This document shows positions 4,500 to 14,014 of a stretch of DNA of 64,000 nt, in pieces. This DNA is from Burkholderiales bacterium (lineage in GTDB: Bacteria > Pseudomonadota > Gammaproteobacteria > Burkholderiales > UBA6910): contig BPKG01000002.1 in NCBI GenBank assembly GCA_026005015.1, positions 372,001 to 436,000 on the forward strand. Direction: 5' to 3'. The translations under genes were made by a program, and so were the position numbers. The notes below the pieces were generated by a model, which was not told where the DNA came from, did no database searches, and saw only the letters and a list, made by a program, of their open reading frames with translations. How positions within the stretch are numbered: the stretch's first letter is position 1; each line of letters starts with the position of its first letter.

Positions 4500-6913
4500 T
4501 CCGCATCGCGCATCGGGGCCGGTTTCCGCCGGGCCGCCAGCGCCGGAGCAGCAGCGAGTTGCTCACCACCGACACCGAACGTCATGCGCCATCGCGGCGC
4601 CCGCGATCACCGGGTTCAGCGAGCCCCACGGCCGCCAGCGGGATGCCCAGCACGTTGTAGACGAAAGGCGAAGAACAGGTTCTGCCGGATCTTGGCCGGA
4701 GCGTCGCCCGGGAGAGCGAGAGGGCGTCGGCGACGCCGTTCAAATCGCTGCGCATCAGCGTCACGTCGGCGGCCTCGATGGCGACGTCCGAGCCGGTGCC
4801 GACGGCGAAGCTCACGTCGGCGGCCGCCAGCGCCGGCGCGTCGTTGATGCCGTCGCCGACCATGCCCACCACGCGTCCGGAGGACTTGAGCCGCTGCACT
4901 TCCTCGGCCTTGTGCCGCGGCAGCACTTCGGCCACGAAGCGGTCGACGCCGGCCTGCGCGGGCGATCGCGGCGGCCGTGGCGTGGTTGTCGCCGGTCAGC
5001 ATCACCACCTCGAGGCCCATCGCCTTCAGCCGCGCCACGGCGTCGCGCGACGTCTCCCGCAGGCGGTCGGCGATGGCGAGGAGGGCAAGCACTTCCCGGC
5101 CGCGCGCCAGGGCCACCACCGTCTTGCCCTGGGCGGTGAGCGGCTCCAGCTCGGCCGCCGGCACGTCGATCCCGCGGCCGGCAAGGAACGCGGGCGAGCC
5201 GAGCGCGAGCGGCACGCCGTCCACCTCGCCGATGACGCCGCCGCCGGTGACCGCCTCGAACGCGGCCAGGCGCCCGAGGGGGATGCCCTGGTCGCGGGCG
5301 CGATCCAGGATCGCCTTCGCCAGCGGATGCTCGGAGCCCTGTTCGAGCGAGGCGGCCAGGGCGATGACGTCGCGTTCGCTCGCGCCGCGGGCGATCACGT
5401 CGGTCAGCGCCGGCTTGCCCTCCGTCAGCGTGCCCGTCTTGTCGACGACGAGCGTGCGGATGTGCTCGGCCTGCTCCAGCGCCGCGGCGTTCTTGATCAG
5501 CACGCCGGACTGGGCGCCGCGGCCGGTGCCGACCATGATCGCGGTGGGCGTCGCGAGCCCCAGCGCGCACGGGCAGGCGATCACCAGCACCGCGACGGCG
5601 TTGATCAGCGCGGTGGTGAAGTCGCCGGCGAGTCCCCACGTCACCGCCAGCGTGAGCAGGGCGATGCCCACCACCACCGGCACGAAGACGCCGGAGATGC
5701 GGTCGGCGAGACGCTGGATCGGCGCCTTCGAGCCTTGCGCCTCCTCGACCAGGCGGATGATGGCGGCGAGCTGGGTGTGGCTGCCGACGCCGGTCGCGCG
5801 GGCACGCAGGCTGCCTTGCTCGTTCCGGGTGCCGGCGTAGACCCTGTCGCCGGTCGTCTTCGTGACCGGCAGGCTCTCGCCGGTCAGCATGGCCTCGTTG
5901 ACGGTGGTCGTGCCCTCGATCACCTCGCCGTCGACCGGGATGCTTTCGCCGGGCCGTACGATGAAAACCTCCCCGACGCGCAGCGTGCCGGCGTCGACCT
6001 CGACGAGCTCGCCGTCGCGCTCGACGCGGGCGGTGCGCGGCTGCAGGCGGATCAGCGACTCGATGGCGGCGGAGGTGCGCGCGCGGGCGCGCGACTCGAG
6101 CAGCTTGCCCATCAGCACGAGCGTGATGATCGCCGCGCTGGCCTCGAAATAGACGTGCTGGTGGTGTAGCGCCAGGACCGTGACGACGGCGCTGAACGCG
6201 TAGGCCATCGTGGTGCCGAGCGCGACCAGCACGTCCATGTTGGCGCCGCCGCCGCGCAGGGCGTGCCAGGCGCCGACGTAAAAGCGCTTGCCGATCCAGA
6301 ACTGCACCGGCGTGGCGAGGACGAGCTGCAGCCAGCGCGGCAGGAATTCGTGGCCGGCGCCCGCGAACATCGGCGCCATCTGCGCGACCAGCGGCAGCGT
6401 CAGCGCGACCGAGATCCAGAACAGGCGCAGGTCGCGGGCGTAGACGGCGGCGCGGCGCGCCTTCTCCTCCTCGCGGGAGGTCTCGGTGATTTCCTCGGCG
6501 CCGTAACCGGCGCGCTCGACCGCGGCGATGAGCTCCGCGACGGTGGCGGCGCCGGGCGAGACGTGGATGCGGGCGCGCTCCGCCGCGAAGTTGACGCTCG
6601 CCTCGACGCCGTCGATGCGATTCAGGACCTTCTCGATGCGCGCCGCGCACGCCGCGCAGGTCATGCCGGTGACCTTCAGCTCGACGGCCTGGGGAGGGAC
6701 GGAATAGCCGGCGCGCTCGATGCTCTTCACCAGCGCGTCCGGGGCGGTGGCGTTCGGGTCGAACTCGATGTGCGCGCGCTCGGCGGCGAAGTTGACCGCC
6801 GCGTGCACGCCGGGCAGGCGGTTCAATACCTTCTCGATGCGCGCGGCGCACGCGGCGCAGGTCATGCCCGTTGACGGGCAGGTCCCGATGGAGCGTGGCG
6901 CTGCCGAGCTCAT
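4500..6913 (-). CDS. copA: Copper-exporting P1B-type ATPase CopA, 3-prime end frame-disrupted
   Basis: Cu(I) efflux ATPase of the inner membrane. From the ATG at 6913 (preceded by GAGGAG) the protein shows two HMA domains, each with GMTCAAC, the actuator motif TGES, the transmembrane metal site CPC in [12 protein letters not shown], the phosphorylation site DKTGT and the hinge block [14 protein letters not shown]. The last block lies in another frame: an extra base near 4957 and further ones near 4680-4700 break the C-terminal part. Remnants [15 protein letters not shown] and [14 protein letters not shown] show the gene continues to about 4500. The extreme N-terminus before the first HMA may also be shifted. 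First gene of the copper set and directly downstream of a CsoR-type operator. Confidence 0.92.
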
Positions 6914-6943
6914 GGCGACTCCTCGGTCAGAAGCCGCGATCGT

Positions 6944-6960
6944 ATACCCCAATGGGGTAT
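6944..6960. promoter_or_regulatory. CsoR-type operator upstream of copA
   Basis: A perfect 7-3-7 inverted repeat, ATACCCC-AAT-GGGGTAT, lies 31 bases upstream of the copA start. This is the known layout of CsoR operators (TACCC/GGGTA half-sites). With csoR in the same gene set it implies autoregulated, copper-induced expression of copA, the CopZ-like gene and csoR. Confidence 0.8.
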
Positions 6961-6986
6961 TCGTCAACGAGCCCCCGCTCGCTTCC

Positions 6987-8996
<2,010 letters not shown>

Positions 8997-9138
8997 ACTC
9001 CACCTCCAAGGGCTTTGAGCTCCGAGGGCTGAATCCAGCCGCTCTCGTCATCCGTAGTAAGAAAATTGTATGCCAAAGGACGAGCCTGCAGCGCTGCCGG
9101 CCGTAAGCGGGCATTATCTTAACTATATATACTGCTGG

Positions 9139-9180: not shown

Positions 9181-9765
9181 ATGGTCCGATCCCGCCAAAA
9201 GGCTTCTACGGCGCTCGATGCCGAGGACACGCCCGCCCGGTTGCTCGCGCGCTGTGCGCTGCGGGACGAGAGGGCTCTGGAGCGGCTTTATCGCTTGACC
9301 TCGCCTCGGCTGTTTGCCCTGGCGCTGCGCATGCTCAGGCGCCGGGATTGGGCCGAAGACGTCCTCCAGGACTGTTTCCTAGCGGTATGGCGCCATGCCG
9401 CGGATTATCGGCCGGAGCGAGGCGAGGCCCTCGCCTGGATGGCTGCGATTTTGCGTAACCGGGCGCTGGATTGGCTGCGGCGGGTCGATCCAGAGACTCC
9501 CTTGGAAGGTGAAGCGTTCTCGGAGCTGGCCGTGGAGGACGAGCATGCGGATCCGCCGGATCGAATGCTTTCCTCCACCGCGGCACGGGTGCTGCAGGAG
9601 TGCCTGGCGCGGCTCCAATCGCGCCAACGCCAGGCGATTGCCCTCGCCTACTACCAGGGCCTAACCCATGAAGAGCTGGCACAGCACATGGGCGAGCCCC
9701 TGGGCACGGTCAAGACATGGATCCGGCGAGGTCTCGAGCAGTTGCGCAGGTGCCTGGGGCGATGA
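9181..9765 (+). CDS. ECF-type RNA polymerase sigma factor
   Basis: A 194-residue sigma-70 family protein with only regions 2 and 4, hence the extracytoplasmic-function group. Region 2 spans about residues 30-103 (LERLYRLTSPRLF, DWAEDVLQDCFLAVW); region 4 spans about 135-190, with the helix-turn-helix LTHEELAQHMGEPLGTVKTW at 161-180. I chose the ATG at 9181 because of the GGGAGAAG ribosome-binding site just upstream; an upstream in-frame start at 9070 would add 37 non-conserved residues. The ATGA overlap with the next gene, a membrane anti-sigma factor, indicates a SigK/RskA-like pair. The stimulus is not readable, but the next genes encode heme proteins. Confidence 0.92.
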   Translation: MVRSRQKASTALDAEDTPARLLARCALRDERALERLYRLTSPRLFALALRMLRRRDWAEDVLQDCFLAVWRHAADYRPERGEALAWMAAILRNRALDWLRRVDPETPLEGEAFSELAVEDEHADPPDRMLSSTAARVLQECLARLQSRQRQAIALAYYQGLTHEELAQHMGEPLGTVKTWIRRGLEQLRRCLGR

Positions 9766-10470
9766 GATACGACAATCCACGGTTGAGGCAGCTGCTGGCG
9801 GGCGAATATGTGCTCGGCACCCTTCGGGGTCGCGCTCGGCGGCGCTTCGAACACCTGCTGCTCGACGACCCGGCACTGCGCCGGCTCGTGGAGGATTGGG
9901 AAATGAAACTCAACACGCTGGCTGAATCGGTGCCTCCGGTCAAACCTCCCGAGCGGGTATGGCGGGCGATCCGAGCCCGCATCGCCCCAGCACGGCCAGC
10001 GCCTGAAGCCTGGTGGAACCGGCTAGTGCTGTGGCGCGCCTTCGCAGCGGCCGCGGCCTTGGTTGCCGTGATGCTGGGCATCCAGCTCGGGCGGGAGCCG
10101 GCGGTAGAGCCCGCCCGTCCTGCGGTGGCGGTGTTGACCGGCGCCCAGAATCAGCCTGCCTGGCTCGTGATCCTGGGGGCCCAGCCCGGCGCAGCCCCTT
10201 CCCTGCGCTTTACCGCGCTTCAGCCCCAGGCCCTGAGCCCCGATCGGTCTTTCGAACTATGGCTGATTCCCCAGGGCGAGGGGGGCCCCTGTCTCGGCGG
10301 GCCTGCTCCCGCCCAGTGGCAGCGGAGCGCTGGCCCTTTCTCCGGCTGCCCAACGCGCTCTTTACCAGGCCAAGGCCGTGGCGGTCAGCCTGGAGCCGAA
10401 AGGAGGGTCTCCCACTGGAGCGCCCACGGGTCCGGTGCTCTATCAGGCGACCCTGATGGCCATGGAGTGA
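9762..10470 (+). CDS. Anti-sigma factor (RskA-like), single-base frameshift
   Basis: Membrane-anchored anti-sigma factor paired with the ECF sigma. The cytoplasmic N-terminal part (residues 1-85) includes [20 protein letters not shown], typical of RskA-type proteins. One transmembrane helix lies at about 88-110. The periplasmic RskA domain ends in SFELWLIPQGEGGP. There the frame breaks: removing one base near 10288 restores AGLLPPSGSGALALSP, then KAVAVSLEPKGGSPTGAP and TGPVLYQATLMAME, the expected ending, with TGA at 10468-10470. Without correction the frame runs to 10478 with an unrelated tail. I expect a sequence error, but a true mutation would release the sigma factor. ATG at 9762 overlaps the sigma stop. 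Confidence 0.85.
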
Positions 10471-10501
10471 ATCTGTAATCGCGCTTCTTGCGTATTAGCC
10501 A

Positions 10502-10519
10502 GTGCGGGATGTCCCGTAC
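10502..10519. promoter_or_regulatory. Inverted repeat upstream of the hemoglobin gene
   Basis: An 8-2-8 inverted repeat, GTGCGGGA-TG-TCCCGTAC, with one mismatch between arms, 26 bases before the start of the truncated hemoglobin gene. Its position suits a repressor operator or leader stem. I do not recognise the regulator. Confidence 0.4.
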
Positions 10520-10545
10520 GATGCAATCTAAAAAGGAGCGCCATC

Positions 10546-10998
10546 ATGAAAACTCGTTTCCGCCGTTCGTTCTTGGTCTTCGGTCTGGTGGCCGCGTTGA
10601 CCGCCTGTACCGCGGCCCAGAGCGCCGCGACCGGGAAGTCCGGGAAGTCTCTCTACGAGCGTCTTGGCGGCAAGCCCGCGATTCAGGCGGTGGTGGATGA
10701 CTTCATCGGCAATGTGGCCGCCGATGCCCGCATCAACGGCTTTTTTGCCAACGCCGATATTCCCCGGCTGAAGAGAATGCTCGTGGACCAAATCTGCGAA
10801 GCTAGCGGTGGGCCTTGTAAATACACGGGTAAGAGTATGAAGGAAGCCCATGCCGGGATGGGAATCACGGAGGCCCATTTCAACGCCTTGGTGGAGGATC
10901 TGGTCAAAAGCCTCGACAAGTTCCGCGTCCCCGAGAAAGAGAAAAACGAGCTCCTGGCGGCTTTGGCGGCGATGAAACCGGACATCGTCGGTAAATAA
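10546..10998 (+). CDS. Group 1 truncated hemoglobin, lipoprotein form
   Basis: A 150-residue protein of the bacterial-like globin (trHb group 1) family. The globin fold begins at [19 protein letters not shown] (residues 35-53). KEAHAGMGI holds the likely proximal heme histidine, H102, and [14 protein letters not shown] follows. Unusually the protein begins with a signal peptide ending in the lipobox LTAC (cysteine 21), so the globin should sit on a membrane outside the cytoplasm. Two cysteines, 84 and 91, flank a GGP turn. The ribosome-binding site AAGGAG precedes the ATG. Family members bind oxygen or nitric oxide; the placement between an ECF pair and a P460-like cytochrome suggests detoxification or sensing of nitrogen oxides (inference). 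Confidence 0.9.
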
Positions 10999-11078
10999 AG
11001 CTCCGAGCCCTCGCTTCCCTGCCAGGGGCAGAAAGACCGCGCCGGATCAAGGCATAGACATCTTCTTTACAACCTCAT

Positions 11079-11121
11079 CCCCCCGCAGACCCGCGTTTTC
11101 TCTGGCCGTCGCGGGGGTTTT
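11079..11121 (+). terminator. Possible weak terminator after the hemoglobin gene
   Basis: CCCGCG at 11090-11095 pairs with CGCGGG at 11110-11115, followed by G and a short T-run (11118-11121). An alternative outer pairing uses the C-run at 11079. The T-run of four is short, so this is tentative. Confidence 0.35.
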
Positions 11122-11136
11122 GGGAGGAAGGCCTAA

Positions 11137-11670
11137 ATGCGCAAGGCTCTATTTCTATTTTGTGGATGGCTATCGTCAAGTCTGTTTTTTGCGGACGTGG
11201 CGTTCCCCAACGAGTCGCGGCGGGACGGAGAGCTTGAGCTGCCTGTCGGCTACCGAGCCTGGCCTGTGAAGCTGCTCGCTGTGGAGCGACCCGACCTTAA
11301 ACAAGTGCGGGACATCTATATCAATAGCCAGGGAAGCCGTTCCACCCGGCCTTTCCCCTATGGCACGGTGCTCGTGATGGAGCTTTATTCGGTGCGGGTG
11401 GGATCGGATGGAAAACCTGTACGGGACGCCGCTGGCAAACTCGAAAAGGGCGCCTTGACCAAGATCTTCGTCATGGGCAAGGGTTTTGGCTGGGGCGAGC
11501 AAGTGCCGCCCGAGCTGCGTACGGGGGAGTGGGTCTATGCGAACTATGAGCCGGACGGAAGACCAGCGGCAGGAGATTTGAGTGCCTGTCGCAGCTGCCA
11601 CGCTCGCTTCAAGGATAGGGATTTCGTCGCTCGTGCCGATGAATACGAGGCAAGGCGCAACGCCCGCTGA
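11137..11670 (+). CDS. Cytochrome P460 / c-prime-beta-like c-type heme protein
   Basis: A 177-residue exported protein with a hydrophobic N-terminus (residues 1-22) and a single C-terminal heme-binding motif CRSCH at 151-155. The body (LPVGYRAWPVKLLAVE, DIYINSQGS, YPYG-like FPYGTVLVMELYSV, then KIFVMGKGFGWGE and GEWVYANYEPDG) matches the cytochrome P460 family. Known members oxidise hydroxylamine or bind nitric oxide in the periplasm. Whether the special lysine-heme cross-link of true P460 is present cannot be judged from sequence alone. Start: ATG at 11137 after GGGAGGAAGG. It follows the lipoprotein globin, so two heme proteins lie downstream of the ECF pair. Confidence 0.85.
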   Translation: MRKALFLFCGWLSSSLFFADVAFPNESRRDGELELPVGYRAWPVKLLAVERPDLKQVRDIYINSQGSRSTRPFPYGTVLVMELYSVRVGSDGKPVRDAAGKLEKGALTKIFVMGKGFGWGEQVPPELRTGEWVYANYEPDGRPAAGDLSACRSCHARFKDRDFVARADEYEARRNAR

Positions 11671-11713: not shown

Positions 11714-13219
<1,506 letters not shown>

Positions 13220-13232
13220 AGGACGTGTCCGG

Positions 13233-13661
13233 TCAGAAAAAGGTCGTCACCCGAAAGCCGAGGGCGCGCGCCGCCTCGGCCTGATTTCTGTCGGAAGTCG
13301 CGAAGCCGGAGGCGCCTAGGGACTCGGCCAGCGAAAGGTGCAGCGCGTCCAGGGTCCGCAGCGGCGCGTTCGCGACGCGCCCGAGCAGATGGTAGGCATC
13401 CGCCACCGGAGCGTTGCCGACGGGATAAAGGACGATGGCGCCGTCCTGGATGTCGGTGCGCATTTCCTCCAGGGCGCGCTTTTCCAAGCGCCGGTCGATG
13501 TGTCCTGCGCGCCGCCGCCGCGCCAGGCCGGAGCGCATCTCCACCAGCGTCAGGCGGCTGACGGCCACCGGCGCGTGGGCGATGAAGAAGGCGTCGAAAG
13601 GCGCGCTCTGGGGCTCTGCGATATAGCGCTTCATGAGCGCGCTGGTGTCCACATAGATCAT
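13233..13661 (-). CDS. PIN-domain toxin, VapC-like
   Basis: A 142-residue PIN-domain ribonuclease of the type II toxin class. The acidic metal-binding residues of the family are in place: D5 in [10 protein letters not shown]41 in [10 protein letters not shown]105 in TLDALHL and D124 in FATSDRNQ. It should cleave RNA, often tRNA or mRNA, when freed from its antitoxin. The ATG at 13661 overlaps the antitoxin stop by four bases, so the two are translationally coupled. It ends 13 bases upstream of lysS. The catalytic set is complete, so it is probably functional. Confidence 0.9.
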
Positions 13662-13891
13662 CGACCGCTTTCTTCGCGATCCTGGCCGATGACGGCCTCG
13701 CTCGGCACCTGCTGCATGCGCTGGCTGGCCCGAAATTTCGCGAGCGAGCGCACCTTGCGCTTCGGGGTTGCGGGCAGAATGCGAACGATCGGCTTCCCGC
13801 GACGGACGACCAGGACCTCGTCGTGGTCAGCGAACAACCGTTCGGGATGACTCAGACCTTCCCGGGCCTCGCGGATGGTGAGCGTTTTCAT
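13658..13891 (-). CDS. Phd/YefM-like antitoxin
   Basis: A 77-residue protein that starts [20 protein letters not shown] and continues with [18 protein letters not shown], the usual pattern of Phd/YefM-type antitoxins: a DNA-binding N-terminal part and a flexible C-terminal toxin-neutralising tail. I chose the ATG at 13891, which has GAGGAACG upstream; an in-frame ATG at 13924 would add 11 residues without family support. It precedes and overlaps the PIN toxin gene by four bases, the standard antitoxin-first order, and probably autoregulates the pair. Confidence 0.82.
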
Positions 13892-14014
13892 GCGTTCCTC
13901 CCGAGAAGTTTGATTGTGACACAAAAGCCAAAACGTGTCGCAAGGCTCCCTCCGTTCGCGCGCTGCGCAATAAGCCCGGGAGTGGGCCTTCCGGATCCGG
14001 CCAGGACCCGCCAG

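Follow-up and report, generated by a model that had tools for sequence, protein, structure and literature searches.

A 64,000-nucleotide stretch from a Burkholderiales bacterium (GenBank assembly GCA_026005015.1, 3.38 Mb in 7 contigs and 95.3% complete; positions 372001–436000 of contig 2, BPKG01000002.1; hereafter the window) carries four genes, all on the plus strand. The first two, which overlap, encode an extracytoplasmic function (ECF) sigma factor and an RskA-like anti-sigma factor; the third encodes a truncated haemoglobin with a lipoprotein signal, and the fourth a P460-type cytochrome. The unit is real and regulated: it is a SigK–RskA–lipoprotein cassette with a little-described family of extracytoplasmic haemoglobins as its new cargo. 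Control of the globin by the sigma/anti-sigma pair is very probable. The explanation that we favour, at about even probability, is an autoregulated ECF stress regulon in which two haem proteins of the envelope, a lipid-anchored globin and a cytochrome c′-beta-like protein, bind nitric oxide (NO) or some similar gas; a function in NO binding, taken by itself, falls a little short of even. Relatives suggest that this way of answering a reactive gas or oxidant at the envelope is widespread and has been little described. An earlier note on this DNA had described the four genes, and their coordinates, features (the ATGA overlap of the SigK/RskA-like pair, the lipobox of the globin, the CRSCH of the P460-type cytochrome) and single direction are all borne out.

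In the proposed mechanism, the RskA-like membrane anti-sigma factor would hold the SigK-like sigma factor until an envelope signal frees it, and the freed sigma factor would transcribe its own gene and the cargo gene from promoters of the form TGAATCY-N16-CGTA. The cargo here would be the truncated haemoglobin, lipid-anchored outside the cytoplasm, followed by the c′-beta-like protein, which would probably be reached by read-through. At the envelope, both haem proteins would bind a small gas, NO or one like it; the c-type haem may act as a redox partner of the globin. Small-gas binding is the most likely job because the globin lacks the polar groups that stabilise oxygen and the P460-type protein lacks those that serve hydroxylamine oxidation.

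The sigma/anti-sigma pair and an ECF-type promoter motif

The SigK-like ECF sigma factor (9181–9765, plus strand, 194 amino acids) is identified by Pfam, by NCBIfam and by alignment to Mycobacterium tuberculosis SigK (4nqw), its best solved relative (4e-26). It matches Sigma70_r2 at 5.8e-17 and Sigma70_r4_2 at 1.1e-15, and scores 148.8 bits against the NCBIfam SigK model, under the cut-off of 226. Its Cys141 and Cys191 align with SigK Cys133 and Cys183 of 4nqw and are kept in 25 and 26 of 28 relatives, respectively. The RskA-like membrane anti-sigma factor (9762–10478, plus strand), recognised by RskA_C and a three-frame reading, begins with an ATG at 9762 that overlaps the sigma stop codon. 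Its RskA_C match (4.4e-08; 33.9 bits against a cut-off of 29.4) covers only positions 2–88 of 135 in the profile because the gene as assembled is frameshifted, near 10285. The three-frame reading shows RskA homology up to approximately residue 175, then the usual RskA C terminus in a different frame that ends near 10470. As assembled, the gene runs to a stop at 10478. An intact relative is present in the sister species (genome G002, locus L139). The frameshift is likely an assembly error, the first suspicion here because upstream genes are broken too.

Two ECF-type promoter sequences lie on the plus strand of the window with the spacing seen in relatives: TGAATCC, 16 bases and CGTA before the sigma gene (9030–9056), and TGAATCT, 16 bases and CGTA before the globin gene (10468–10494). 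TGAATCY-N16-CGTA occurs exactly twice in the 3.38 Mb genome, at these two places, and its backward control does not occur; a longer form allowing one mismatch has three sites, two of which are again those of the sigma and globin genes. When the upstream regions of the window and three relatives are compared, the motif stands at equal spacing in six places. Two precede sigma genes (the window and the sister species) and four precede cargo, namely the globins of the window and of genome G001, the ferritin-like gene of the sister species, and the ferritin-like gene followed by the globin in genome G172. The exact motif has three sites in the sister genome, at the sigma gene, at the ferritin-like gene in the same syntenic position and at a DUF3034–globin operon on another contig; G172 has one, and G001 has ten, one of them at its globin. 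There is a strong case from the sequence that the SigK-like sigma factor uses these sites. The TGA of the −35 element before the globin (10468–10470) is also the anti-sigma stop codon in the sister species and in G172, and it stops the RskA-like alternative frame of the window.

In its looser form, ATCC-N15-17-CGTA, the motif stands close to the beginning of 49 of the 104 globin genes and 24 of the 65 sigma genes, as against 42 of 1555 other genes; another classing of the non-globin, non-sigma genes gave 33 of 1529, which was used for the Fisher test. Swapped, reversed, permuted and re-spaced controls reach at most 7 of the 104 globin and 1 of the 65 sigma genes. The genes of relatives were called by a simple script, with approximate starts and some genes missed; the motif is present at many globin genes for which no sigma gene was called in the vicinity. 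It also occurs at 6 of 24 DUF3034 genes. Between the globin promoter and the ribosome site of the window is a leader hairpin (10502–10519, plus strand; z −2.2), and hairpins of differing sequence sit between the ECF promoter and the cargo ribosome site in four species (the window, L139, L074 and L069; z −2.2, −2.2, −1.4 and −2.1).

Two haem proteins predicted to lie outside the cytoplasm

The globin (10546–10998, plus strand; Bac_globin 8.3e-17) is a group 1 truncated haemoglobin (trHb1) with a lipobox, LTAC, that ends at Cys21, and it is thus predicted to be lipid-anchored outside the cytoplasm. Residues B10, E7, E11 and F8 have roles in the haemoglobin HbN, and B10 and E11 are named in PDB titles. 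Aligned to HbN, the window globin has Ile54 at B10, Leu75 at E7 and Leu79 at E11, with His102 as the proximal residue and a pair of cysteines, Cys84 and Cys91, that may form a disulfide. Its structure model has the trHb1 fold (mean predicted local distance difference test score (pLDDT) 84), with the HbN TyrB10Phe/GlnE11Val mutant as best match (template modelling score (TM) 0.88 by target).

These features recur in 111 globins, 31 from the order set described below (the window's own included) and 80 from a named set, in which some uniformity is expected because members were collected by similarity to the query. B10 is Val in 81, Ile in 21, Met in 4, Leu in 3, Thr in 1 and Ala in 1, and never Tyr; E11 is Leu in 103, Ile in 4, Val in 2 and a gap in 2. 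His102 is kept in all 111, and both cysteines are present in 110 and neither in one. Twenty cytosolic-looking trHb1s from the same order, hand-picked among lower-scoring matches and judged by eye to have no signal, have Tyr at B10, Gln at E7 and Gln at E11 in 13 each, and Cys at position 91 in none and at position 84 in 7. By an ad hoc rule rather than a signal-peptide program, the 111 N termini comprise 77 that are lipobox-like, 32 that are otherwise hydrophobic and 2 that lie behind a cytochrome c motif. These numbers give no support to the view of the earlier note that such a lipid-anchored truncated haemoglobin is unusual; the globin belongs, by its sequence, to a large, little-described extracytoplasmic family with an apolar distal pocket and a cysteine pair. 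A role as an HbN-like NO dioxygenase was rejected, the B10 and E11 residues being lost. The fusion of a cytochrome c motif ahead of the truncated haemoglobin is seen in two genomes of one genus (L078, 7263–7931; L081, 135–803).

The fourth gene (11137–11670, plus strand; Cytochrome_P460 4.5e-21) encodes a P460-fold c-type cytochrome with CRSCH at residues 151–155, whose best solved relative is 7s5o (1e-9). This is Nitrosomonas europaea cytochrome c′-beta, which, according to the available part of a 2025 review (PMC11928373), has Met79 at the cross-link lysine position and Ala109 at the carboxylate position and does not oxidise NH2OH; the same text describes the c′-beta class as binding NO and CO. 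In the window protein, the cross-link lysine position (Lys78 of McP460) is Met81, and Met stands there in 16 of 16 aligned rows; the carboxylate position is Phe111, with Phe in 12, Ala in 2, Leu in 1 and Tyr in 1 of the 16, and no acidic residue. Belonging to the P460 fold family, with a CXXCH motif and no cross-link lysine, the protein is classed from its sequence as cytochrome c′-beta-like. Hydroxylamine oxidation is unlikely because the cross-link lysine and the carboxylate are missing, so we rejected the protein as a hydroxylamine oxidase, and the action on hydroxylamine that had been proposed for it finds no support.

Linkage, cargo exchange and competing explanations

Linkage was examined in 300 order genomes, sampled evenly from a larger group. 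With the own genome counted, the globin query has a match in 84 of these genomes, the anti-sigma query in 72 and the P460 query in 32. Globin and anti-sigma factor lie within 5 kb of each other in 10 of the 35 genomes having both (own included), from six families, where approximately 0.12 would be expected. The earlier note had made its proposal depend on linkage to the sigma pair in relatives: with the window genome left out, globin and anti-sigma are within 5 kb in 9 of 34 genomes and not in the other 25. The named set was obtained with a profile built from 7 close globins, which gave 372 matches (585 pattern stretches); the best 80 were taken, so that close relatives are favoured; some of these loci are cut by contig ends. 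An ECF sigma factor above 100 bits is present in 37 of the 80, and 29 of the 37 also have an anti-sigma match; they carry titles such as Nitrospira, Rokubacteria, Methylomirabilota, Acidobacteria, Ignavibacteria and Deltaproteobacteria, among others. None of the counts given here allows for descent, and related species enter them more than once. This linkage and the shared promoter motif, with its two exact copies in the genome, support the proposed membrane-signalled unit for sigma, anti-sigma and globin.

The arrangement varies. G001 has sigma, anti-sigma and globin; G172 has sigma, anti-sigma, a ferritin-like gene and globin; G051 has DUF3034, globin, a cupredoxin-like gene, sigma and anti-sigma; and G208, G227 and G126 have divergent layouts. 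Four genes in the order of the window, which had been suggested as a fixed unit, were found among the loci inspected in the window alone, and that idea was rejected. A recurrent neighbourhood combines a DUF3034 barrel, a secreted globin, a cupredoxin-like protein and a GGDEF-EAL protein (L083, L084, L099, L107 and similar loci). DUF3034, Ferritin_2, GGDEF-EAL and Cytochrom_C were named by profile match, and the cupredoxin-like protein is below cut-offs. The names SRPBCC, SUMF1-like, DUF4331-like, HupE-like, TPR, cupin/ChrR-like and HemN are our presumptive assignments by eye. On that footing, some globin loci of Thiobacillus and Nitrospira have what we take to be cupin-type, ChrR-like anti-sigma factors instead of RskA, and presumed DUF4331-like, TPR and HupE-like genes adjoin the globin in loci of Competibacter and Nitrospira (L174, L181, L198, L202 and L203; L183, L187, L191 and L195).

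In the sister species the flanks (copA, synthetase, lysS) and the sigma/anti-sigma pair are the same, with the anti-sigma factors 74% identical, and a single Ferritin_2 gene replaces the globin and P460 genes of the window; a different globin is located elsewhere in that genome. In the tree, modest support (87/90) places the window globin together with Thiobacillus and with rows belonging to other phyla, apart from G001 of its own family. The globin and P460 genes were probably acquired as a pair and placed behind an existing switch.

The P460 gene is fairly probably part of the unit, as the earlier note had it, and rather unlikely to be a bystander that arrived beside the globin. In four loci of the Thiobacillus/Hydrogenophilaceae group (L159–L162), whose globins are 71–77% identical to that of the window, a P460 gene follows the globin downstream at a distance of 0.6–2.5 kb; the two share a strand and are separated by other genes. 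In Nitrospira moscoviensis (NZ_CP011801.1) globin and P460 share a single 341-codon frame with a lipobox. An alignment that includes this fusion is poor. The ECF motif stands upstream of 6 of 20 P460 genes of relatives, the N. moscoviensis fusion among them, and four controls give 0; the 20 were hand-picked among 54 loci as high-scoring and without a long extension, and L019, excluded for its extension, is the same gene as L095, which carries the motif in another count. The P460 search behind the named loci covered 50 of the 80 and matched in 19. The G+C content of the P460 gene (59%) is similarly low to that of the globin gene (58%), with other measured genes nearby at 67–72%.

Several results weigh against the regulon or against the place of the cytochrome in it. 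No globin match lies within 5 kb of any of the 35 other P460 places in the order sample, and the sister species has no P460 match. The ECF motif, for which the earlier note had suggested a check before 9181, 10546 and 11137, was found before the first two and not upstream of the third. Between the globin and P460 genes lies a G+C-rich hairpin followed by TTTT (11080–11117, plus strand; z −1.85), possibly a weak terminator or attenuator, at which a terminator scan listed no site. The pocket and capping residue of the P460-type protein are read from the alignment because its structure model failed (pLDDT 45). As for the switch, no strict motif was found upstream of sigma in G001 or G172, and the globin site of the window reads ATCT, outside the looser form, and is not among the 49. 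G001 has nine further exact copies, with repeated spacer sequences (contig 29, 86781–92686, and six other contigs), which are probably repeated elements. No sigma factor above 100 bits is found in 43 of the 80 named loci. Finally, cd1 nitrite reductase (E < 1e-99) is present in 11 of the 41 order-sample genomes with this globin (80 bits) and in 66 of the 259 others; no association appears, and a tie between the two was rejected, NirK and NorB being outside this comparison. The trapping of reactive nitrogen in the periplasm that the earlier note envisaged may still apply. Cytochrome cd1-family genes (best 2.4e-157) do occur in the genome of the window itself, approximately 35 kb from the sigma gene.

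The main rival holds that the regulon answers oxidative stress (peroxide, singlet oxygen or envelope redox state), with the haem proteins as peroxidases or oxidant sinks. Its appeal comes from the ferritin-like cargo that occupies this site in the sister species and also in G172, from the presumed ChrR-like, cupin-type anti-sigma factors at Thiobacillus and Nitrospira loci, and from the failure of cd1 nitrite reductase to track the globin. Both SigK redox cysteines are also conserved, their redox role being taken from the accessible text of PMC7509140. The apolar pockets, however, fit neutral gases, and the c′-beta class is described, in the part of PMC11928373 available, as binding NO and CO; we regard an oxidative-stress response as unlikely. 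Still less probable is a circuit that serves mainly for sensing, with feedback, in which the globin, with or without a c-type domain, would signal bound gas or oxidant to RskA. The lipoprotein location indicated by the N terminus, the link to several kinds of ECF/anti-sigma pair and the apolar pocket would suit a sensor, but the globin itself is behind the promoter, as expected of an effector, and many motif-bearing globin genes have no sigma gene nearby. Returning to gas binding by the cargo of an autoregulated regulon, a broader version is possible rather than probable: extracytoplasmic, cysteine-paired, apolar-pocket truncated haemoglobins may be a general class of ECF-sigma effector in several phyla (Pseudomonadota, Nitrospirota, Rokubacteria, Methylomirabilota, Acidobacteria and Ignavibacteria), with c-type haem partners that are sometimes on the same polypeptide. 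They would then form an unrecognised envelope gas-defence or gas-sensing system and could account for the missing signal of SigK/RskA-type and cupin-type pairs.

Genomic setting and known systems

Upstream of the unit, at 4616–8996, are copA and an acetoacetyl-CoA-synthetase-like gene (minus strand), which are broken into several frames, like the anti-sigma gene, probably by indel errors of assembly and possibly as real pseudogenes. Downstream is lysS (11714–13219, minus strand). At 13233–13924, between lysS and prfB, a PIN-domain gene overlaps a small upstream gene in a toxin–antitoxin-like arrangement. A plasmid search returned 65 records, and not one of them spans 80% of the query. The best two comprise a record from another genomic context and an unannotated one.

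As a minimal regulon of haem cargo and two promoter sites, the unit turns the SigK/RskA signal into a concrete, testable ligand or oxidant hypothesis; that signal is stated as unknown in the available text of PMC7509140. In the same text, SigK is under the control of the RskA portion outside the cytoplasm, and in mycobacteria alterations of this portion increase SigK activity; the anti-sigma frameshift of the window, if genuine, would predict an over-active switch. The unit also draws attention to extracytoplasmic haemoglobins as a large class that has been little described. Many of them occur in nitrogen- and sulphur-cycle bacteria, and the cytosolic NO-dioxygenase idea is not simply transferable to them because the residues are missing. 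The globin–P460 fusion of N. moscoviensis provides one protein for direct biochemistry. In the open literature, with subscription journals mostly uncovered, the fusions of cable bacteria are the only periplasmic truncated haemoglobins that we recognised among the papers listed, and the P460 review lacks the words globin, fusion, operon, gene cluster and sigma factor.

Among known systems, the mpt83–sigK–rskA cassette of Mycobacterium and Yersinia, as presented in the available portion of PMC7509140, shares with the window a two-cysteine SigK-like sigma factor, an RskA-like membrane anti-sigma factor and an adjoining surface lipoprotein gene with an upstream sigma site. The cargo there is MPT83, whereas the window has no MPT83 neighbour and carries a truncated haemoglobin, together with a P460-type cytochrome, in its place. 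HbN (1idr, 2gl3) and the window globin have the same fold and proximal His, but the latter has a lipoprotein signal, Ile at B10 and Leu at E11 for Tyr and Gln, and the cysteine pair. The N. europaea cytochrome c′-beta likewise has Met at the lysine position and no carboxylate; the window protein differs in adjoining a secreted globin, in having Phe rather than Ala at the carboxylate position and, by alignment, apparently in its capping residue. The pentahaem cytochrome–truncated haemoglobin fusions of cable bacteria (PMC11976967 and PMC13047784, each available in part) similarly join an extracytoplasmic truncated haemoglobin to c-type haem and, with the fusions reported here, suggest that a c-type haem may be the redox partner of the globin. 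Unlike the unit in the window, they have a multihaem partner, oxygen reduction is proposed for them, and the parts of those papers available mention no sigma/anti-sigma link.

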